Below are positions 3,536-63,775 of a DNA stretch of 64,000 bases, in pieces. How positions within the stretch are numbered: the stretch's first letter is position 1; each line of letters opens with the position of its first letter. The notes beneath the pieces are model-generated. The model saw only the letters and a list, made by a program, of their open reading frames with translations, was not told where the DNA came from and searched no databases. The stretch covers positions 4,836,001 through 4,900,000 of the forward strand of contig NZ_CP020892.1 of NCBI RefSeq assembly GCF_002163625.1. Reading direction: 5' to 3'. The translations under genes and the position numbers were made by a program. The DNA comes from Pseudomonas sp. M30-35. GTDB taxonomy: Bacteria; Pseudomonadota; Gammaproteobacteria; Pseudomonadales; Pseudomonadaceae.

Positions 3536-4969
3536 ATGCTCGACTTACTCAATGACCTCATCTGGAGCAAGCTGCTGATCGTAATGCTGATCGGTCTTGG
3601 CTTGTTCTTCACCATCTCCTCGCGTTTCGTTCAATTCCGCTACTTCGGCAACATGTTCAGCATTTTTGCTGAGGCATTTAAGCGCCAGCCGGGCCAACTC
3701 AGCTCGTTTCAGGCATTGATGCTATCGGTTGCTGGTCGCGTCGGCGCAGGCAACATCGCCGGTGTATCGGTGGCGATTATCCTGGGTGGTCCTGGTGCAA
3801 TCTTCTGGATGTGGATCGTAGCGCTGGTTGGTATGGCCACTAGCTATTTCGAGTGCTCGCTGGCCCAGCTGTTCAAGCGCCGCGATCCCGATGGCAGCTA
3901 CCGTGGCGGCCCTGCTTTTTACATTCAGCATGGCTTGGGCCAGCGCTGGTTAGGCATCGTCGTATCGATCCTGCTGCTGATGACCTTCGGTTTTGGCTTC
4001 AACGCAGTGCAGTCCTACACCGTTGCCAGCTCGATGTATGACACATTCGGCGTGCCCACCTATGTCAGCGGTGTGGTACTGATGGCCGTGATCGGTATGA
4101 TCATCTTCGGCGGCATCAAGCGTATCGCCAAGTTCGCCGACATTCTGGTTCCGGTGATGGCGTTCTCATACATCGCCATGGCTGTGTTCGTCATCGGCAG
4201 CAACGCTGATCGCATCCCAGAAGTATTCTCGCTGATCTTCCGCAGTGCTTTTGGCCTTGAGCCAGCGTTTGCGGGCGGTATTGGCGCAGCCATTATCATG
4301 GGTGTTAAGCGCGGCCTGTTCTCCAACGAAGCGGGTCTGGGCAGTGCACCGAACGTGGCCGCCGTTGCCGAGGTTCCACACCCGGTCGCGCAGGGCATCG
4401 TGCAATCACTCAGCGTATTCATCGATACCATCATTCTGTGCAGCTGCACTGCGCTGATCATCCTGCTCTCGGGTGTATATCAGCCCGGCAGCGAGATGGC
4501 CGGTGTACTGCTGACACAAACCGCTGTCGCCAGTGTTGTCGGTGAATGGGGCCGCGTATTTATCAGCGTCGCCTTGCTGTTGTTCGTGTTCACCACGTTG
4601 ATCTACAACTACTACCTGGGTGAAAACGCCTTGGGTTTCTTCACCAAAAAGCGTACGCCGGTCGTGGTTTACCGGGTCATGGTTGTCGTGTTGGTGTTCT
4701 GGGGTTCGGTACAAGACCTCGGCACCGTATTCGCCTTCGCTGACGTAACCATGGGCTTGCTGGCTATCTGCAACCTGGTGGCCCTGGCGCTGCTGTTCAA
4801 GATTGGCCTGCGCTTGATGCGTGACTACGACAAGCAGATGAAAGCGGGTGTAAAGTCTCCGGTATTCGACCCCAAGGAATTCAGTGACTTGGATCTTGAC
4901 CCAGCTGTTTGGGCGCAACTGAAGGCTCAGAACAACACTGAGAAGACTGCTGTGACCAATCCAGTCTAA
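3536..4969 (+). CDS. Alanine/glycine:sodium symporter (AGCS family)
   Basis: An inner-membrane sodium:amino-acid symporter (AgcS/DagA/AlsT type) of 477 residues with about ten hydrophobic segments. The signature region is near residues 62-90: GRVGAGNIAGV followed by GGPGAIFWMW. KRGLFSNEAGLGSAPN, also typical of the family, lies mid-protein. I chose ATG 3536 because the translation begins in the expected N-terminal helix (LLNDLIWSKLLIVMLIG); the upstream TTG at 3479 would add 19 unlikely residues. An AAGAG sequence precedes the start at a slightly long spacing. Substrate is probably alanine, glycine or a related small amino acid. Next to asparaginase and opposite an HTH regulator. Confidence 0.9.
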   Translation: MLDLLNDLIWSKLLIVMLIGLGLFFTISSRFVQFRYFGNMFSIFAEAFKRQPGQLSSFQALMLSVAGRVGAGNIAGVSVAIILGGPGAIFWMWIVALVGMATSYFECSLAQLFKRRDPDGSYRGGPAFYIQHGLGQRWLGIVVSILLLMTFGFGFNAVQSYTVASSMYDTFGVPTYVSGVVLMAVIGMIIFGGIKRIAKFADILVPVMAFSYIAMAVFVIGSNADRIPEVFSLIFRSAFGLEPAFAGGIGAAIIMGVKRGLFSNEAGLGSAPNVAAVAEVPHPVAQGIVQSLSVFIDTIILCSCTALIILLSGVYQPGSEMAGVLLTQTAVASVVGEWGRVFISVALLLFVFTTLIYNYYLGENALGFFTKKRTPVVVYRVMVVVLVFWGSVQDLGTVFAFADVTMGLLAICNLVALALLFKIGLRLMRDYDKQMKAGVKSPVFDPKEFSDLDLDPAVWAQLKAQNNTEKTAVTNPV

Positions 4970-54569: not shown

Positions 54570-55394
54570 TTACTGATTGATGATGCTATCGACCTGATAG
54601 ACGACTGGCTCACCAATGTGACGCTGCAAGGTTCCGTCAGCCAGCCACTGGCGAATCCATGTGATGGCCTGACCCATTGCGTGATCACCTAGAGGTGTAA
54701 GATCAGCGCAGAGCTCGGCAAAACTGCCACCTTGCACGGCCATTTTGTAGAGCGCACTGGCTTCATCAGGTGCAAGTGTACGATAGCGGCTAATCAAGCC
54801 ATTACGCCAAATCAAACAGACTGACTCTTGCTCCAGCGCATGACTGCCCGGAAATTCGCTATCGTCTTTCAGGGCGCGCCATAACGCCAGGGTGTTGTAG
54901 CGCAGAGTTTGCCACTGCACACTTGGCAACAAGCGTGTTTGCAGATTTGGCCACTCATCAGCCTGCAAACTGGCGAGCAAGGCTTCTGTTAGCGGCTGAC
55001 CATCTGCTGCATCGAATGACAGGGTGAAAGCCCATTCAAAACGCGCAAGCTCCGCTAATGGTTCGGCCTGCTCAGGGATAAGATGAGCCTCGATAAACTC
55101 GGCAAATCGAGCACCCAGCCAGCGCAAGCTGAAATGGTCTGGCGGATAGGCATTGATATAGGCCAGGGCCAGGGCATCAAACTCTTCATCGCCCATCCAA
55201 CCGTGCACAGCGCTGTAATCGCCGCGCAAGGTTTCAATCAGCCGGGCACGATAGGCGTTGTGATAAATCGCCAACCCCATATCGACATCAAGATTCGCGC
55301 TGCCCACCAATGTGGCGCGTAGTTCAGGATTGGCGACCGACTCATCCCCTAGCAAATAGGTTTCAATCTCTTGCTGCCACTGATTCAGCCGCAT
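54570..55394 (-). CDS. bufC: Bufferin partner protein (DUF2063/HvfC family)
   Basis: The RiPP-recognition partner of the DUF692 (MNIO) enzyme. 274 residues: N-terminal DUF2063 domain (about 5-95, QWQQEIETYLLG, AIYHNAYRARLIETLRGDY) and a C-terminal domain that in this family helps bind the precursor. It overlaps bufB by ten bases, so the two are coupled. Assignment rests on the family and on the complete bufA-bufB-bufC order. Confidence 0.88.
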   Translation of the reverse strand: MRLNQWQQEIETYLLGDESVANPELRATLVGSANLDVDMGLAIYHNAYRARLIETLRGDYSAVHGWMGDEEFDALALAYINAYPPDHFSLRWLGARFAEFIEAHLIPEQAEPLAELARFEWAFTLSFDAADGQPLTEALLASLQADEWPNLQTRLLPSVQWQTLRYNTLALWRALKDDSEFPGSHALEQESVCLIWRNGLISRYRTLAPDEASALYKMAVQGGSFAELCADLTPLGDHAMGQAITWIRQWLADGTLQRHIGEPVVYQVDSIINQ

Positions 55395-56230
55395 AGTGAC
55401 TCCGCCTGAAGGGCTTTCGCGCCTAACTCGCGGGCTTTTTGCAGCTCAGCCATCAACTCGGCAAATGGCGGGTAGTGATCATCACGCTCGATCATGGTCG
55501 CGACCGGCCCCAGATGTTTGATAGTGCGTTCGTACAACTGCCAAACGGGGTCACATACTGGGTGATCGTGAGTATCAATCACATAAGTGCCGTAATCGGT
55601 ATGCCCGGCCAAATGCAGCTGGCGGATCTTATCCACAGGCAGGCTGCTGATGTAGGTCCACGGGTCAAAACCATGATTACGCGCGCTGACGTAAACATTG
55701 TTTACATCCAGTAGTAAATCGCAGCCAGTGATTGCTGTCAGTTCCGAGAGAAACTCCCACTCGGTGAACTTGTCGCCAGCGGTGCGGATATAGGTTGAAG
55801 CATTTTCCAGCACCAGCGGACGCTCAATGACGTCCTGTACCTGGCGAACGCGCGCCGCTACGTGCTGCAAACTTTCATCAGTGAAAGGCAGTGGTAGCAA
55901 ATCGTGCAGGTGATGGGCATTACCGCGACTCCAGCACAGATGGTCAGATATCCATTGCGGTTTGACCCGATCTGCCAGCAGCTTTAGACGTTTGAGGTAA
56001 TCGCGATCCATCTCGTGTGGACCGCCAATCGACAACGATACACCGTGCATCACTACTGGATAGTGCTCAGCGACCGCGTCTAAGTGATAAAGGGCTTTGC
56101 CACCCTCAATCATGAAATTTTCAGAAATCACCTCGAACCAATCGACATCAGGTCGTTGTTCCAGGATTTCTTGATAGTAGGGAATTCGCAGTCCTAGGCC
56201 GTAGCCAAGACAGTCTGACTTAGCAGGCAT
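55385..56230 (-). CDS. bufB: Multinuclear iron RiPP enzyme (DUF692/MNIO, BufB/HvfB type)
   Basis: A 281-residue TIM-barrel-like iron enzyme that oxidatively modifies cysteines of the BufA precursor to thiooxazoles or oxazolone/thioamide groups. Metal-ligand residues typical of the family are visible: MHGVSLSIGG, ISDHLCWSRG, LENASTY, LLLDVNNVYVSA, HLAGHTDY and IDTHDHPVCDPVW. It lies between bufA and bufC; a strong hairpin separates it from bufA. Described bufferin operons bind copper, so copper defence is the expected role. Confidence 0.92.
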   Translation of the reverse strand: MPAKSDCLGYGLGLRIPYYQEILEQRPDVDWFEVISENFMIEGGKALYHLDAVAEHYPVVMHGVSLSIGGPHEMDRDYLKRLKLLADRVKPQWISDHLCWSRGNAHHLHDLLPLPFTDESLQHVAARVRQVQDVIERPLVLENASTYIRTAGDKFTEWEFLSELTAITGCDLLLDVNNVYVSARNHGFDPWTYISSLPVDKIRQLHLAGHTDYGTYVIDTHDHPVCDPVWQLYERTIKHLGPVATMIERDDHYPPFAELMAELQKARELGAKALQAESLCG

Positions 56231-56265
56231 GCCAAGCTCCTTGGTTAGATTCGGACAGTAATAAA

Positions 56266-56293
56266 GGAGCAGCCATCAGCCGATGGCTGCTCC
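56266..56293 (-). terminator. Attenuator-type terminator between bufA and bufB
   Basis: A perfect 12-bp stem (GGAGCAGCCATC, complement after a 4-nt loop) followed on the minus strand by TTTATTA. It is placed right after bufA, so much of the transcript should stop here, giving more precursor than enzyme. Confidence 0.85.
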
Positions 56294-56307
56294 CTGTTGC
56301 TCTAGTC

Positions 56308-56571
56308 TTACTCTTCGCCAACACGGCCTTTGGCAGCATTGCAATCAGCCAAAGACATAGCTTTGAAGCCATGGCCTTTGCAGATGCCTTGGCCTTTGCA
56401 GGCGTTTTCAGCGGTTTTGCAGTCATTTTGACCTTTGCAGGCGTTAACACCAAAGCATTGAACAGGCGAATCTTCAGCGACAACAACAGTGCTGGCCATG
56501 GTTGCAAACATGGTTGCAGCAGTGAACGCGATAGCAGCACCGGTTGCAGCAAAAGTAGATTTAGTAGTCAT
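56308..56571 (-). CDS. bufA: Bufferin precursor peptide (BufA2-like)
   Basis: An 87-residue ribosomally made, modified peptide that is exported to the periplasm to bind copper. A long signal peptide of about 32 residues (AAIAFTAATMFATMAST, ending VVVA) is followed by a core with six cysteines at 39, 45, 51, 58, 64 and 77, in ACKG/DCKT/ICKG units (QCFGVNACKGQ, ENACKGQGICKGHGF). GAGGA lies seven bases before the ATG. First gene of the buf operon, divergent from fap. The BufA2 label is by pattern only. Confidence 0.85.
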   Translation of the reverse strand: MTTKSTFAATGAAIAFTAATMFATMASTVVVAEDSPVQCFGVNACKGQNDCKTAENACKGQGICKGHGFKAMSLADCNAAKGRVGEE

Positions 56572-56817: not shown

Positions 56818-56988
56818 TGTATCAGCCATGAAACACATCCGCGAGTCAGCACCTGCGGTTTACACAGCTTTGCCATGTTTCCTGCGGGACTGTTTCATCC
56901 GTGTAACACCCCGTTAAGTCCACGCTTGGCTTGGTCAGGCACGGATAATCCTCATACACCTGAGCAGCAGTGTCTCACCGGTGAAACA
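56818..56988 (+). promoter_or_regulatory. Three enhancer-like dyads upstream of fap
   Basis: TGTATCA-N4-TGAAACA (56818-56835), TGTTTCA-N4-TGTAACA (56891-56908) and TGTCTCA-N4-TGAAACA (56971-56988) share the consensus TGTTTCA-N4-TGAAACA. They are 73 and 80 bases apart, and the last is the centre of a 24-bp near-perfect palindrome (56968-56991). The position 65-235 bases before a -24/-12 promoter is typical of binding sites for a sigma-54 activator. Confidence 0.75.
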
Positions 56989-57052
56989 CTGCGCTTCGCC
57001 CTGCCTGCTACAAAAAAATCTAACTTGCTGATATTCCTAGATAAAACAATTC

Positions 57053-57068
57053 CGGCACGACTCCTGCG
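57053..57068 (+). promoter_or_regulatory. Sigma-54 type promoter of the fap operon
   Basis: CGGCACGACTCCTGCG matches TGGCACGRNNNTTGCW at 13 of 16 positions and keeps GG and GC with ten bases between them. Start would be near 57079, about 70 bases before fapA. Confidence 0.6.
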
Positions 57069-57147
57069 AACACTTAGGCAAAACCAACCGCAGAGTTGCA
57101 TTGCACATCTTCAATGCGCAAGAAGATATGTAGAAGGAATTGATGTC

Positions 57148-57648
57148 ATGGAACGTAGAAACAGTTCAGGGTCATTCCAATCGTCATTACTGGCGGTAGC
57201 GCTTGTGATGCTTTCAAGCGTCTGCGCTACACCTGTACTCGCTCAGGACGGCATTATCGTATTGGGCCGCCAGGTTCAGCCGCGCCTTGCAACGCATCCC
57301 ACTGATATCCCCGACCCCAATCCAACGGTGGTCAATACCAACATCTCGCGACAAGTTGTCTCGACAGTCAATGGCAGCCTTGGCAATGCGCAAATGGGCG
57401 GTGAGCTGGCGGATGCAGATTTTGCCAACATCACCACGGGCTCCAGCATCAACTCAATGATCATGCCCAACGGCAGCCTTCCTGGTTTCAACGCTCTAGG
57501 CACCGACCAAGCCAACCACCAAGGTGCGACTAACACCGGCTCAGCCGGGCATTCAGGCGGCAACTCAGGGAATGGTTTGAGCGGCACCATCAACAGCACC
57601 ATTCAACGCGGCCTTGCGCCATTGAACATACTCAGTGGGGGCAAGTGA
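57148..57648 (+). CDS. fapA: FapA, functional amyloid accessory protein
   Basis: First gene of the fap amyloid operon; FapA is a periplasmic helper that affects which subunit goes into the fibril. 166 residues with a signal peptide (about 1-33, LLAVALVMLSSVCATPVLA) and a mature part rich in Asn, Gly and Ser (VVSTVNGSLGNAQMGG, GSAGHSGGNSGNGLSG). ATG 57148 has GAAGGA nine bases upstream. The frame is open further upstream to 56728, but that stretch holds the promoter and activator sites and is not coding. Confidence 0.85.
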   Translation: MERRNSSGSFQSSLLAVALVMLSSVCATPVLAQDGIIVLGRQVQPRLATHPTDIPDPNPTVVNTNISRQVVSTVNGSLGNAQMGGELADADFANITTGSSINSMIMPNGSLPGFNALGTDQANHQGATNTGSAGHSGGNSGNGLSGTINSTIQRGLAPLNILSGGK

Positions 57649-57649
57649 G

Positions 57650-58228
57650 ATGAAGAGTCTGCCGTTGCTAATAGCGCTTGCGATCTCAACCACGGCTTTG
57701 GCCGATGGATCGCCAGCATCCATGAGCCAAGCCACTATTTCCAGCAGCGCCAGCCACTATCAAGGCGTTGTTTCAGTTAACCAGGCAGCGGGCGAATGGC
57801 AACAGCAAAGTAATGCAAGAGCGCTGGCAGTGGGTAACGGCGCCAGCGCTTCGACCCAACAAATTCAAAACCTGAATATTCATAACGTCGACAGATCTCA
57901 AGCCGCAGACGTGGCCATTGAGGCGGGCGCATTTAACTCAGGTAATGGTGTCCTCGGTATCAACCAATCCGCCGGGGCAGGAACTCAACAGGCCAATGCA
58001 ATGAGTATCAGTGTGAGCTCCGGGCTTATCAGCCTGGATGACTCAATGCTGTCGCAGAACGTGGCCATTACACAGATCTCAGGAGCAGTTGCACCCTCCA
58101 CTGGGGAGCGACGCGTAGCGACCGATGACACTGCGTTTGTCGGAAGCCGTGGAGTTGTGCAATTGAACCAGAGTGCTGGGGTCGGGAACCGCATGGGGAA
58201 CAACCTCAGTATCAGGGTGAGTGATTAG
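57650..58228 (+). CDS. fapB: FapB, minor amyloid subunit / nucleator
   Basis: 192 residues with a signal peptide (about 1-18, LLIALAISTTALA). Three FapC-like imperfect repeats are visible: VVSVNQAAGEWQQQSNARAL, VLGINQSAGAGTQQANAMSI and VVQLNQSAGVGNRMGNNLSI. FapB is thought to nucleate the fibril. The ATG is one base after the fapA stop, with a G-rich ribosome-binding site in the end of fapA. Confidence 0.9.
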   Translation: MKSLPLLIALAISTTALADGSPASMSQATISSSASHYQGVVSVNQAAGEWQQQSNARALAVGNGASASTQQIQNLNIHNVDRSQAADVAIEAGAFNSGNGVLGINQSAGAGTQQANAMSISVSSGLISLDDSMLSQNVAITQISGAVAPSTGERRVATDDTAFVGSRGVVQLNQSAGVGNRMGNNLSIRVSD

Positions 58229-58290: not shown

Positions 58291-59304
58291 ATGAAAACTA
58301 AAATGGTAGTAATGACGCCGCTGGCAATCGCTTTGGCAGTCGCCATGGCAGCGACAACAGTACAAGCTGACCAGAAAAAATCTTGGTTCCCAGAAACAGG
58401 TGCATCCGCAACTGTCGACGATACCCAGATCATCAAAGGTAACGGCGTACTGAACGAAGGCACTGAAAACGCAGCAGGCGTTGATGACGTTGGGGCAGGC
58501 GCCTCGGGTAACGTCGGTATCAACGTTGTTGCAGGTACCAATAACCAACAGGCCAATGCCGCAGCACTTGCCAGTGCTGATGCTAGCTTTGTCTTTGGTA
58601 CCGCCGAATCGTCAACCACTGTTAACCAGAAGTTGACCAACAACGGCGTGATGAACTATTCCAACCCAAGCACAGCAGCGCTCACCAACTCGCTTAACGG
58701 CGCCAGTGGTAACGTCGGTGCCAACGTTGGAGCGGGTACTTATAACCAACAGAAAAACGACATGGCTGCTGCGGTCTCTGCAGGCGCGTTCTCAACCGCC
58801 AGCAGCACAGCCACTCAGTCGATCACAAACAACACCACCAACAACAAAGCCACGCTTGAATATGGCTCTGCAAAAGTCGCTCTGAAAATGGGCGCTATTG
58901 GTGGCTACAAAGGCCAATCTGACCAGATCGGTGATGTCTATCTCGACTCTTGGGAAGGTGAAGGTCACCCAGGTGGCACCAACACTGGTCACGTAGATCT
59001 TGATAGCAACGCACAAGGCGCTACAGACCTTAACGGTGACGGCGGCGCACTGGCCTTCAACGAAGAAGGTGTGATCGGCCTGCTCGGTGTAGTGACCGGC
59101 AATATTCCGGTTGTAGCTGGCTTCAACGCTCCAGTGGTCAACACTGCAGTACTGAGTGGCTCGCTGAACTACGTATCGGGTAACGTCGGTGTCAACGTGG
59201 CGGCTGGTGCTGGTAACCAGCAAAGCAACTCTCTGTCGATTGCTGCAGGCTGCACCTCGTGCCCAGCCGGCGGTACTGGTGGCGGCGAATCGCTTCGCTA
59301 CTAA
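58291..59304 (+). CDS. fapC: FapC, major functional amyloid subunit
   Basis: The main fibre protein, 337 residues. Signal peptide about 1-26 (ending TVQA). Three amyloid repeats: about 70-97 (SGNVGINVVAGTNNQQAN), 137-163 (SGNVGANVGAGTYNQQKN) and 295-320 (SGNVGVNVAAGAGNQQSN). The linker between repeats 1 and 2 is about 39 residues, and the second linker is long, about 130. The conserved C-terminal CxxC is CTSC at 321-324. An intrinsic terminator directly follows the gene, in line with its much higher expected output. Confidence 0.95.
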   Translation: MKTKMVVMTPLAIALAVAMAATTVQADQKKSWFPETGASATVDDTQIIKGNGVLNEGTENAAGVDDVGAGASGNVGINVVAGTNNQQANAAALASADASFVFGTAESSTTVNQKLTNNGVMNYSNPSTAALTNSLNGASGNVGANVGAGTYNQQKNDMAAAVSAGAFSTASSTATQSITNNTTNNKATLEYGSAKVALKMGAIGGYKGQSDQIGDVYLDSWEGEGHPGGTNTGHVDLDSNAQGATDLNGDGGALAFNEEGVIGLLGVVTGNIPVVAGFNAPVVNTAVLSGSLNYVSGNVGVNVAAGAGNQQSNSLSIAAGCTSCPAGGTGGGESLRY

Positions 59305-59362: not shown

Positions 59363-60043
59363 ATGCGCGCCCTTCTCGTTGTCCTGATCATGTTGATTTG
59401 CCCTGCGTCCTACTCGGCTCAGCTGGGCTTTCCGGTACTACCGGGCGGAGCCTTGGCATTTAAGAACGTCGAAAGTTTTCGCGAACGGCGCTTCAGCAAC
59501 CTGATCGAGCAAAAAACTGATTTCAGCTGTGGCGCTGCATCTCTGGCGACCATTCTGTATCAGGGTTATCGCTTCGATATCGACGAACAAACTGTCATTG
59601 AAGGAATGCTTCAACAAGCAGACCTTGATCTTGTACGCAGCCAAGGTTTCTCAATGCTCGACATGAAACGTTATGTCGAAGCCATTGGCTTACGCGCCCG
59701 CGGTTATCGCATTCCTGCTGAACAACTTGAGCAAATCAAAGTCCCGGTGGTCGTACTGCTGGATGTTCGCGGCTACAAGCATTTTGTAGTGCTGCAGAAA
59801 ACCGAAAGCAATTGGGCCTACGTCGGCGACCCGGTTTTGGGCCACAAGCGCTACAAGCTGGACGATTTCAAAGCAGGCTGGAACGGTATTGTTTTCGCGG
59901 TAATTGGCGCTGGCTATGATCGCAACAATCCGTTAACAGACCCGCCGCAGCCACTGACTGCGCGCAACCGTCTGGACCGCTTCAAACCAGTCAATGATGC
60001 CGAGTTGATGGAGTTCGGCTTTATACAAAGTGACTTCTTTTAA
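59363..60043 (+). CDS. fapD: FapD, C39-family peptidase of the amyloid system
   Basis: 226 residues with a signal peptide (about 1-19, LVVLIMLICPASYSA). C39-like papain-fold protease: catalytic Cys56 in DFSCGAASLATIL, His140 in YKHFVVL and Asp156 in VGDPVLGH. FapD is needed for export or processing of Fap proteins in the periplasm. AAGGA precedes the ATG. The stop TAA shares a base with an ATG that could start fapE. Confidence 0.92.
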   Translation: MRALLVVLIMLICPASYSAQLGFPVLPGGALAFKNVESFRERRFSNLIEQKTDFSCGAASLATILYQGYRFDIDEQTVIEGMLQQADLDLVRSQGFSMLDMKRYVEAIGLRARGYRIPAEQLEQIKVPVVVLLDVRGYKHFVVLQKTESNWAYVGDPVLGHKRYKLDDFKAGWNGIVFAVIGAGYDRNNPLTDPPQPLTARNRLDRFKPVNDAELMEFGFIQSDFF

Positions 60044-60054
60044 TGGAGCACGAC

Positions 60055-60816
60055 ATGAAGACTCAACTGTGTGTGGCAACCATTTGTTTGGCTGCCAGCC
60101 TGCCACTCCAAGCCACAGGACTGTTTGCACCTGCAGAGCTGAGTGACCAGGAGTTATCGCAACTACGCGGCCGATATGTACTGCCAGGAAGAATTGTGAA
60201 TTTTGGTGTGACCATGGCCAGCACGTGGCAAAACGCGAGTGGCCAGGTACTCGGCGCCAAGGTCGATATGCAAATCCAGCAGAGCATCAAGCCGGTGTTC
60301 AACATCACCACATTTAAGCAGGGCAACAATGATGCAGCGGCCGCAACTATCGCCGCGGGAGTGGGTAACTCGCCCGCCCAAGGCACCGGCCAGCTAAGCG
60401 GTGGTAACAGCCTCAATAATGTTCAGGGTGTGGTGCAAACGACCCGTTCTGCCGGTGACCTAAACACCAGCTACAACAACCTTAATATCGATGTCAGCCA
60501 CGGCAATACAGCACCTGCTGTGATGTCCGGCTCACAGCTAGTAAGCAGTGTGCAGCAAACCAGCGACGTCGGCACGGTAAGGGTCAGTCCAATGGGTGGC
60601 GGCTTGCAGTTGGCCATCGATGCCAACGGCCAAGGCGCTAGTCTGCAGCAGCTTGGAGCAGGCGGCGCAGTTCAACGTAGCGACATTTATGGCTCAAGTA
60701 ACACTGTTACCAATTTCGCCGCGCTCAACGTATTGCTGAAAGAAAATATGCCGACCGCGAACGGGTTGAACTGTAATTGGAACCAACTTAACAATTTGCG
60801 TCCAACAGGGCTGTAA
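60055..60816 (+). CDS. fapE: FapE, minor extracellular amyloid component
   Basis: 253 residues with a signal peptide (about 1-20, ATICLAASLPLQATG). The body is rich in Asn, Gln, Gly and Ser with FapC-like pieces (LNNVQGVVQTTRSAGDLNTS, VTNFAALNVLL). The N-terminal LSDQELSQLRGRYV and a single C-terminal Cys (LNCNWNQLNN) are conserved-looking. I start at ATG 60055 because GGAG lies seven bases before it; ATG 60043 overlaps the fapD stop and is also possible. Confidence 0.88.
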   Translation: MKTQLCVATICLAASLPLQATGLFAPAELSDQELSQLRGRYVLPGRIVNFGVTMASTWQNASGQVLGAKVDMQIQQSIKPVFNITTFKQGNNDAAAATIAAGVGNSPAQGTGQLSGGNSLNNVQGVVQTTRSAGDLNTSYNNLNIDVSHGNTAPAVMSGSQLVSSVQQTSDVGTVRVSPMGGGLQLAIDANGQGASLQQLGAGGAVQRSDIYGSSNTVTNFAALNVLLKENMPTANGLNCNWNQLNNLRPTGL

Positions 60817-60864: not shown

Positions 60865-62121
60865 ATGCCGAAGCACGTATCTCTAGGCTTGGCTATATGT
60901 GCGGCTAGCGCTCTTGCCGCGCCTACATTGATGGCCGCGACCGACGCTGAAGTAGACGCATTAAAACAACAACTCGAACTACTTAAACAGCATTACGATG
61001 CTCAGCAAAAAGCTTTGATGGTGCTCGAACAACGACTTAAACAAGTTGAGTCTCAACCCGTTCAAAAACCACTGCTGCGCCCTATCCCTGCAACCGGACG
61101 CAGTGAGACGGTGGCCAAATCTGGGGAAGCCGGTTACGGCACCAGCCTGCAAGATGATGCAGCGCCAGCACGCAGCGTTGAGAATATTTACAACGAGGCC
61201 AGCGGCTTCTTCGGCACAGGCACCTTCAGTTTTGAAACAGGCCTGACTTACAGTCACTACGACAGCAGGCAACTGTTTCTTAACGGTTTCCTGGCCCTCG
61301 ACACCATCTTTCTTGGCAACATTGGTGTCGACCAAATTAACTCTGACACCTTAACCCTCGATCTGACTGGCCGGTATAACTGGCATGACCGTTGGCAGTT
61401 CGACCTCAACGTGCCTGTGGTGTACCGCGAGACTACATTTGAATCTGCTGGCGCAGGCGGCGCGAGCACATCCATCTCTGAAGAAACCGTCACCCGCAAC
61501 CCTGAAATCGGTGATATCAGTGCCGGTATCGCTTATAAGTTCCTGACTGAAACCGAGAGCCGTCCAGATGCGGTCCTCAGCCTGCGGGTCAAGGCACCTA
61601 CAGGTAAAGACCCTTACGGCATCAAGCTTCAGCAAGTACCTGGCAACGACAACTTGACGGTTCCAGAAGAGCTGCCAACCGGCAACGGTGTGTGGTCAAT
61701 CACTCCTGGCATATCGTTGGTCAAAACCGTCGACCCAGCCGTGCTCTTCGGCAACCTTTCATACACCTATAACCTGGAAGAGGACTACAGTGACATCAGC
61801 TCTACGCGCGGGGTCAAGCAACCCGGCACAGTAAAGCTGGGTAACTGGTTCCAATTCGGCTTGGGCATGGCCTTTGCGCTAAACGAGCGCATGAGTCTGT
61901 CGATGTCTTACTCGCAGCTGCTTTCGCAAAAAAGCAGAGTCAAGGCTGAAGGCCAAGGCTTCACGTCAGTGCCCAGCAGTGACGCCAATGCCGCGTACTA
62001 CAACATCGGCATGACCTATGCGTTCGATGAAAACCTAAGCATCGTGCCCAACCTATCCATCGGCCTGACACCCGATGCCCCCGACTTTACTTTCAGCGTC
62101 AGATTTCCTTACTACTTCTAA
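60865..62121 (+). CDS. fapF: FapF, outer-membrane amyloid exporter
   Basis: 418 residues. Signal peptide about 1-24, then a coiled-coil (about 27-65, [20 protein letters not shown]) that is the FapF trimerisation region, a linker, and a C-terminal beta-barrel of about 290 residues with alternating strands ([16 protein letters not shown]) ending in YYF. FapF is the pore that secretes FapB, FapC and FapE. Last gene of the operon. Confidence 0.93.
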
Positions 62122-62443: not shown

Positions 62444-63775
62444 TCAGCGAATCTGGTGCTTATGCAGCAAGCGATAAAATGTCGGCCGTGAGATACCCAA
62501 ACCGCGTGCCGCCTGGCTACAGTTCTCAGGATACCTCGCCATTGCATCGCTGAGGGCCTGAATCTCTGCTTTGCGCTTGTAGTCTTCCAAGGTTCTAAGC
62601 CGTTCAATAAGAATGCTGCCTGGTTCAAGACCAAGATCCTTGGCCTCAATCTGGCGCCCCTCTGCCAACACCAAACCTCGCCGCACTCGATTCGCCAACT
62701 CACGGACATTGCCGGGCCATTTGTGCTCAGCCAACTGCTTCAATGCTTCTTCACTAAAGCGCTTGGCCCGCCGGCCAGTTTCGGCGCTGTATAAACTGGC
62801 AAAGTAATTTGCCAACATTGGAATATCCGCCACTCGCTCATGCAAAGCGGCGGTATGCACTTGCAGTACATTGAGGCGGTAATACAGGTCTTCTCGGAAA
62901 CTGCCGTTATCGATCGCGGCTTCAAGATCGATATGGGTTGCAGCCAGAACCCTGACATCAACCGATATTGGCTGGCTCCCTCCCACCCGCTCTATTTGTT
63001 TCTCTTGCAGAAAACGCAGCAGGTTAGCTTGCAACTCAAGGGGTAAATCGCCAATTTCATCGAGAAACAGGGTGCCGCCGTCTGCCGATTCAATCCGGCC
63101 GATTTTACGTTGATGTGCGCCGGTAAATGCACCCTTCTCGTGACCAAATAACTCTGACTGAATTAGGTGCTCAGGAATTGCCCCGCAGTTGATCGCAATA
63201 AATGGCTTACCTGCTCGGCTCGAACGGTGATGCAAGGTTCTTGCGACTAACTCTTTACCCGTACCGCTTTCACCACGGATCAATACCGGGGAATGGGTCG
63301 GTGCAAGTTTGGCCAGCAATTTACGTAAATCACGGATAGGTGTGCTCTGTCCAAGCAGCTCATTTTCATGATCATCAATGATGCCGCTTTTCCGCCCACG
63401 TAACCTTGCCATCCCGTAGGCTCGGCCCAAGGTCACATGCACCCGAGACACGTCAAACGGCAAGGTGTGATAGTCAAAAAACCACTCACCCACAAACTCA
63501 CCAAGGGTATTAACCGAAGACAGCAAGTCAGGACTAAGCACTGCAATCCACTCAGCACCACTGCGGCTTAACAGTTGCTTGATTGCGGCTGGGCGACGCA
63601 AGTGCATTTCATTGAGCCGGATCAAACCGACATCGCAGTCACGCTCCTCCGCATACTCAAGCATGCAGCCTTCCACGGTCCATCCTGCCTCTCGAAGGCT
63701 TGGTAATAGCGACCGGCAATCATCACAAGGGTCGACTACCAAGAGGCGCCGCGGTGTACTCGTATCATTAAGCAT
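62444..63775 (-). CDS. VpsR-like sigma-54-dependent activator, probable fap regulator
   Basis: 443 residues. N-terminal receiver-like domain (about 1-125) in which the usual phospho-acceptor position is not an Asp in normal context (DVGLIRLN), AAA+ domain with Walker A GESGTGKE (168-175), intact GAFTGA (215-220) and the family's C-terminal Fis-type HTH (CSQAARGLGISRPTFYRLL). Length and layout match VpsR, but the intact GAFTGA means it should work with sigma-54. AAGGA lies six bases before ATG 63775. Its place beside fap, and the activator-type sites upstream of fapA, make control of fap likely. Confidence 0.87.
   Translation of the reverse strand: MLNDTSTPRRLLVVDPCDDCRSLLPSLREAGWTVEGCMLEYAEERDCDVGLIRLNEMHLRRPAAIKQLLSRSGAEWIAVLSPDLLSSVNTLGEFVGEWFFDYHTLPFDVSRVHVTLGRAYGMARLRGRKSGIIDDHENELLGQSTPIRDLRKLLAKLAPTHSPVLIRGESGTGKELVARTLHHRSSRAGKPFIAINCGAIPEHLIQSELFGHEKGAFTGAHQRKIGRIESADGGTLFLDEIGDLPLELQANLLRFLQEKQIERVGGSQPISVDVRVLAATHIDLEAAIDNGSFREDLYYRLNVLQVHTAALHERVADIPMLANYFASLYSAETGRRAKRFSEEALKQLAEHKWPGNVRELANRVRRGLVLAEGRQIEAKDLGLEPGSILIERLRTLEDYKRKAEIQALSDAMARYPENCSQAARGLGISRPTFYRLLHKHQIR

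Follow-up and report, generated by a model that had tools for sequence, protein, structure and literature searches.

In Pseudomonas fluorescens PF07, an RpoN promoter was mapped upstream of fapA by 5'-RACE, and fap expression is reduced in rpoN and in brfA deletions (PMC9207406, available text). PMC13101488 (available text) describes BrfA as a c-di-GMP-sensing enhancer-binding protein with direct control over fapA, and reports that the PF07 protein binds c-di-GMP. The available portions of these two papers contain no BrfA site sequence, dyad array, spacing rule or IHF-like block, and those of PMC8202526, PMC3792158, PMC3684753, PMC11999139, PMC11852148, PMC11989221 and PMC11664836 contain no BrfA site sequence. 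The fap-BrfA system itself is known, and we do not claim the dyad consensus described below as new. Binding sites may be given in Guo et al. 2024 (Microbiol Res 287:127864), which PMC13101488 cites for direct, c-di-GMP-responsive control of fapA by BrfA.

We analyzed a 64,000-nucleotide stretch of the Pseudomonas sp. M30-35 genome (the window), which contains the operon fapABCDEF and a brfA orthologue (Table 1). The locus resembles the PF07 BrfA-RpoN system as far as that is described in the available text: the same operon, a -24/-12 promoter and an adjacent, convergent gene for an NtrC-type activator. As in PF07, brfA lies directly after fapF in convergent orientation (PMC9207406, available text), a layout also seen in 38 of the first 60 loci from relatives. 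We consider it highly probable, judging from sequence comparisons, that the region upstream of fapA is the regulatory region of fapABCDEF, with predicted BrfA-binding dyads and a sigma-54 promoter that would make the operon responsive to c-di-GMP.

Table 1. Promoter elements and genes of the fap-brfA locus, in window positions
Feature	Positions	Strand	Basis
Dyad III (distal) TGTATCAGCCATGAAACA	56818..56835	+	1 mismatch to TGTTTCA-N4-TGAAACA
Dyad II TGTTTCATCCGTGTAACA	56891..56908	+	1 mismatch to TGTTTCA-N4-TGAAACA
Dyad I (proximal) TGTCTCACCGGTGAAACA	56971..56988	+	1 mismatch to TGTTTCA-N4-TGAAACA
IHF-like block TAACTTGCTGATA, at -32	57021..57033	-	1 mismatch to YAANNNNTTGATW
Predicted sigma-54 (-24/-12) promoter CGGCACGACTCCTGCG	57053..57068	+	GG/GC at fixed spacing
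fapA	57148..57648	+	NCBIfam FapA equivalog above cut-off
fapB	57650..58228	+	NCBIfam equivalog above cut-off
fapC, major amyloid subunit	58291..59304	+	NCBIfam equivalog above cut-off
fapD, C39 peptidase	59363..60043	+	Pfam Peptidase_C39 and operon order
fapE	60052..60816	+	NCBIfam equivalog above cut-off
fapF, outer-membrane barrel	60865..62121	+	Pfam Phenol_MetA_deg above cut-off, other barrel families below theirs; operon order
brfA orthologue, 443 aa from ATG, presumed dyad binder	62444..63775	-	Pfam Sigma54_activat, VpsR

The earlier note had pointed to a VpsR-like protein as the candidate regulator; this protein is BrfA, whose role is already known. Its VpsR N-terminus and Sigma54_activat domain both score above their cut-offs, HTH_8 reaches 20.1 bits (cut-off 22), and the sequence carries GAFTGA, Walker A and Walker B motifs and the recognition helix SRPTFYRLLHKHQIR. 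Among the BrfA sequences whose end was read, this helix is unchanged in most and differs by one to three letters in L041, L045, L048, L049 and L054. The open reading frame listed for brfA begins at a TTG and extends to 63871. Matches to relatives mostly start near the ATG at 63775, and the TTG start is probably too early. We rejected autoregulation of brfA, as its upstream stretch inside the window holds no dyad at up to four mismatches.

All three 18-bp dyads that the earlier note had placed upstream of fapA are present in the 577-bp intergenic region that separates the fapA ATG from a small divergent gene starting at 56571. Their joint form is TGT[A/T/C]TCA-N4-TG[A/T]AACA. Relative to the first base of the -24 element, dyad III begins 235 bp upstream, dyad II at -162 and dyad I at -82; the commonest position of the proximal dyad in relatives is -81, which we count against our reading. 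The start-to-start distances of 73 bp (III to II) and 80 bp (II to I), followed by a sigma-54-like promoter, were borne out as well. As 64 bases separate dyad I from this promoter, transcription is predicted to start near 57079. The element has GG at -24 and GC at -12 at the fixed spacing and three mismatches to TGGCACGNNNNTTGCW, which we take to be the sigma-54 promoter consensus. A gene for rpoN was found in the genome. Like enhancer sites, the dyads are repeated, activator-type sites about 80-200 bp upstream, and they are conserved.

The extent to which such dyads are expected by chance depends on the stringency of the match. At up to three mismatches the window holds five dyads, which is not unusual because 18 of 100 shuffles reached that number. 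At up to one mismatch, only five sites occur in the whole 4.93-Mb genome and three of them are the fap dyads; when the intergenic region was shuffled 20,000 times with its dinucleotides preserved, 11 shuffles contained at least one such site and none contained two. At up to two mismatches the genome has 16 sites against 11 for the reversed pattern. The motif is thus hardly enriched genome-wide at that level, and the signal in this genome is local to fap. For the same reason we rejected the motif as a regulon finder in this genome, where we claim no further targets.

The arrangement of dyads, IHF-like block and -24/-12 element is nearly constant among almost all fap promoters that we examined; a minority of them have the third dyad. 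The sample comprised 120 stretches (up to 20 kb) around brfA, hand-picked from the listed brfA places in genomes of the same genus, as well as eight motif-ascertained loci and the window. Among these 129 loci, 103 had a FapA match, 25 had brfA only and one (L177) had neither. A strict -24/-12 element (GG and GC) was called in 102 of the 103 fap loci, 101 of them distinct. Our script placed a proximal dyad (at least seven of nine core letters) at -80 (14 promoters), -81 (80) or -82 (6), that is, in 100 of the 102. In the other two the promoter had been called wrongly, and inspection by eye located the dyad 81 bp before the right promoter. Seven of the 102 promoters were motif-ascertained; 93 of the 100 scored by script were not.

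The outer letters of the proximal dyad do not vary: G2, T3, C6, A16, C17 and A18 are the same in all 100 promoters. The right half is looser, ranging from TGAAACA to CGTTACA, and fap promoters that lack a dyad at up to three mismatches retain just a variant whose right half is degenerate, for example CGTTACA, a point against our reading. In one diverged lineage (L048, L049 and L045) the left half of the proximal site is still TGTNTCA and the right half reads CTTACA, hinting at half-site drift. In 96 of 100 promoters a second, upstream dyad scored above the 99% level obtained with shuffled promoters; the four in which none was significant, which we count against our reading, are L045, L090, L126 and L152. 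For 13 of 93 fap promoters a third dyad near -235, its position in the window, also lay above the 99% null; in several others it appears by eye to be half-conserved. Conservation of the dyads in related fap promoters was one of the two checks on which the earlier note had staked its proposal of an activator-controlled sigma-54 promoter, and the proposal came through it. Dyads, spacing and -24/-12 element are conserved across the genus, the proximal dyad recurs in some other genera, and in PF07 the RpoN promoter of fapA was mapped by 5'-RACE and fapA depends on BrfA (PMC9207406, available text).

The distance between dyads takes few values. For 92 of the 96 promoters with a second dyad, the nearest significant one lies 47 (4), 57-59 (11), 69-70 (16) or 79-83 bp (61) from dyad I; the exceptions are 77 (1), 91 (2) and 155 bp (1). 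When all dyad matches are counted, three more appear at 106-107 bp from dyad I. Another 95 named promoters gave the same picture: 94 have a second dyad, located at 47 (2), 57-59 (15), 69-70 (23) or 80-83 bp (51) in 91 of them, and at 78, 89 and 92 bp once each. We assigned 93 promoters to spacing classes of 82 (57), 70 (15), 58 (10) and 47 bp (4), with five lacking a second dyad in range and two being odd. On a tree of the 93 FapF and FapD sequences the class changed at least 15 times, a count that includes the five promoters without a second dyad and the two odd ones. With gains and losses pooled, class 58 changed four times, class 47 three times and class 70 four times.

The best-fitting period of the dyad II-I distances is 11.65 bp (R 0.99), with R 0.81 at 10.5 bp. 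Tested on the four class values alone, a figure that we prefer, the period has a P of 0.009; with one value per counted change, where losses count like gains, none of 20,000 random sets was as good. The earlier note was therefore right that the dyads are phased, and wrong in giving 7 and 7.5 turns of 10.5 bp, as the step across promoters is about 11.6 bp. That this step is larger than 10.5 bp was weighed against our reading. We read the spacing pattern as probable selection for the face of the helix, and the array looks like a conserved enhancer with phase-locked spacing. The inter-dyad distances would change by about one helical turn because BrfA dimers need a fixed angular relation to each other.

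All fap promoters compared here are orthologous, so one may expect the dyads to be alike through shared descent of the promoter, with no selection acting on them. The pattern of the columns contradicts this, because most spacer columns are variable while the dyad ends, the -32 block and the -24/-12 element are near invariant. In addition, the second dyad was retained in 88 of the 93 promoters in spite of at least 15 changes of spacing class, and four other genera contribute 15 genomes in which the proximal element again stands near brfA. Mere inheritance is a most improbable explanation.

Between dyads and promoter lies an IHF-like block that the earlier note had omitted. The best match to YAANNNNTTGATW, which we take to be the IHF consensus, has the same position and orientation as the block of the window in 82 of 100 fap promoters. 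A match with at most one mismatch occurs somewhere in the spacer of 79 of the 100 promoters against 7.8% of mononucleotide shuffles, and at the -32 position in 76 of the 95 further promoters. Columns -31, -30, -24 and -23 (A, A, T and G) are 98-100% conserved and agree with YAANNNNTTGATW. At some columns the block departs from this consensus, and we weighed its one mismatch in the window against our reading.

We also scanned a public genome set (genome contigs) with the composite pattern dyad-N64-GGCAC-N6-TGC. This pattern fixes the dyad-promoter spacing at 81, so the window (82) cannot match it. At least 119 stretches matched. Among those listed, 113 have fapA directly downstream, four end within 111-316 bp so that the gene is not visible, and two (L335 and L396) precede other, non-fap genes. 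The divergent genes on the far side of the intergenic region (54570-56571, minus strand) encode an 87-aa ORF without a Pfam match, an MbnB/TglH/ChrH enzyme (PF05114) and a DUF2063 protein. They look like a RiPP cluster, presumably of the bufferin type. The dyads lie in the intergenic region shared with this operon and could in principle belong to it rather than to fap. Since their geometry is constant relative to the fap promoter across genomes, and fapA follows in 113 of the composite matches listed, we give this assignment almost no weight.

In L396 (P. ullengensis, about 4312-4410) a dyad and a -24/-12 element stand at fap-like spacing before a gene that by eye is ammonium-transporter-like; L335, a MAG, has both elements at fap-like spacing before a non-fap gene. 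These sites perhaps serve another activator of like specificity, or arose by chance.

In order to relate the dyads to BrfA, we tabulated 199 genomes, taking FapF at E up to 1e-30 as fap and E below 1e-110 as brfA. Both were present in 141 genomes, fap alone in none, brfA alone in 23 and neither in 35. The exact motif (TGTYTCA-N4-TGAWACA) occurred together with brfA in 124 genomes and alone in three, with brfA alone in 40 and neither in 32. It was thus found in 124 of 164 brfA-positive and 3 of 35 brfA-negative genomes, and a reversed control in 3 of 199. Two observations count against a strict link: the exact motif is absent genome-wide from 26 of the 141 fap genomes, and it occurs at other places in 9 of the 23 genomes with brfA and without fap. 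In three motif-found genomes (G003, G056 and G189) fap and brfA are 47 to 540 kb apart on one contig, and the dyad is at fap. The co-occurrence of motif and brfA runs mostly through fap, and is better evidence for a tie between the dyad and the fap-brfA unit than for one between the dyad and BrfA itself.

Ten brfA stretches without fap (L038-L040, L042-L044, L046, L047, L050 and L051) hold orthologues of 61-67% identity, with an unchanged recognition helix in the nine whose end was read. In the two of these loci that were inspected, L038 and L046, the neighboring ORF of 1252-1254 aa is presumably cobN-like. Of the 25 such stretches, the 18 covered by the dyad scan (these ten and eight others) had no dyad at up to two mismatches.

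A different protein, such as another Fis-type activator or a repressor, might bind the dyads while BrfA acts elsewhere in the region. The exact motif in brfA-less genomes (3 of 35) and at non-fap places would fit such a binder, as would the two non-fap genes among the composite matches listed. We nevertheless judge it improbable: the proximal dyad is fixed 80-82 bp from the -24/-12 element, within the range of enhancer-binding proteins (PMC5552954, available text), no genome among the 199 has fap without brfA, and fap in PF07 requires brfA (PMC9207406, available text).

We found brfA in 7 of 19 genera of the family (E up to 1e-100). Among 69 genomes with brfA (67 from outside the genus), the composite pattern (up to two mismatches) was present in 19 and its reversed control in none. 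Sixteen of the 19 matches are about 5 kb from brfA, one in the genus of the window and 15 in genera g5, g9, g10 and g16; the other three are elsewhere. Near brfA, in genomes picked as brfA-bearing, the composite was found in 1 of 24 genomes of g9 (BrfA mostly 71-74%), 0 of 18 of g12 (mostly 52-55%) and 0 of 2 of g4. G366, the closest relative by BrfA, has no match at the 81-bp spacing. These results speak against a family-wide rule.

Exact motif sites away from fap suggested one further candidate target. Of 29 such loci examined among the matches listed, eight precede one chemoreceptor gene (4HB_MCP, HAMP, MCPsignal), two (L195 and L207) turned out to be fap loci on a separate contig, and inspection of the ORF starts by eye showed no gene in common among the remaining 19. 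Chemoreceptor loci of fap-bearing relatives with a dyad and GCCGAT are L168, L187, L192, L202-L206, L251 and L254-L271. We then fetched 40 chemoreceptor upstream regions by gene, 28 of which are from genomes with brfA and fap. A dyad (up to two mismatches) was present in 19 of the 28, located 63 (10) or 71-74 bp (9) before GCCGAT, two positions about one helical turn apart. The nine regions without a dyad include all six of one subclade, where the chemoreceptor gene is near brfA. None of the eight regions from fap-lacking genomes with a diverged brfA had a dyad, and one of four from brfA-lacking genomes did (two mismatches). In the eight loci scanned, no -24/-12 element is directed at the chemoreceptor gene; GCCGATA presumably resembles the -10 element of the flagellar sigma factor. 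The gene is absent from the window's own genome (E 1e-150). The evidence for a second BrfA target in relatives is suggestive, and the candidate dyad fits another binder equally.

Under our preferred reading, BrfA, the enhancer-binding protein whose convergent gene follows fapF, would occupy each dyad as a single dimer, and the six subunits of an AAA+ ring could come from three such dimers. The c-di-GMP-bound ring would hydrolyze ATP and remodel the closed complex of sigma-54 polymerase at 57053-57068, possibly aided by a DNA bend between enhancer and promoter. The region then offers a precise, testable operator for the switch from c-di-GMP to amyloid in Pseudomonas, and a consensus with which other targets may be sought. 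The roughly 195 promoters are natural variants, and their spacing suggests what range of geometries is acceptable to a sigma-54 activator. A bolder proposal, which we hold as a doubtful possibility, is that the fap promoter records an assembly rule in which BrfA-dimer distances step by about 11.6 bp, and that BrfA has a second mode in many fap-bearing relatives, acting from a single dyad at a chemoreceptor promoter in which no sigma-54 element is apparent. If true, one c-di-GMP activator would couple amyloid matrix and chemotaxis via two forms of the polymerase.

Three described regulators invite comparison. VpsR of Vibrio cholerae (solved chain 7v2b) shares the N-terminal VpsR domain and the AAA+ domain with the protein in the window. 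VpsR acts without RpoN (PMC5552954, available text), whereas the window protein has GAFTGA and the operon a -24/-12 promoter. BerB of Burkholderia cenocepacia is, like BrfA, a c-di-GMP-binding enhancer protein in RpoN-dependent control of the biofilm matrix, and its binding sites were footprinted upstream of the target promoter (PMC5552954, available text). Unlike BrfA, it controls berA and thereby exopolysaccharide, and we liken the two by function, not by site sequence. GcsR of P. aeruginosa has three sites of 18 bp, each made of 7-bp arms around N4, before an RpoN promoter, as in the window, and these were interpreted as three dimers forming a hexamer (PMC4894688, available text). It differs in being a TyrR-type regulator of a glycine operon with the core TGTAACG-N4-CGTTCCG (same source); against this core the window has TGTTTCA, and we rejected a GcsR-type site. 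As far as the available texts describe them, the nearest parallels to the fap locus are BerB in function and GcsR in the layout of its sites.
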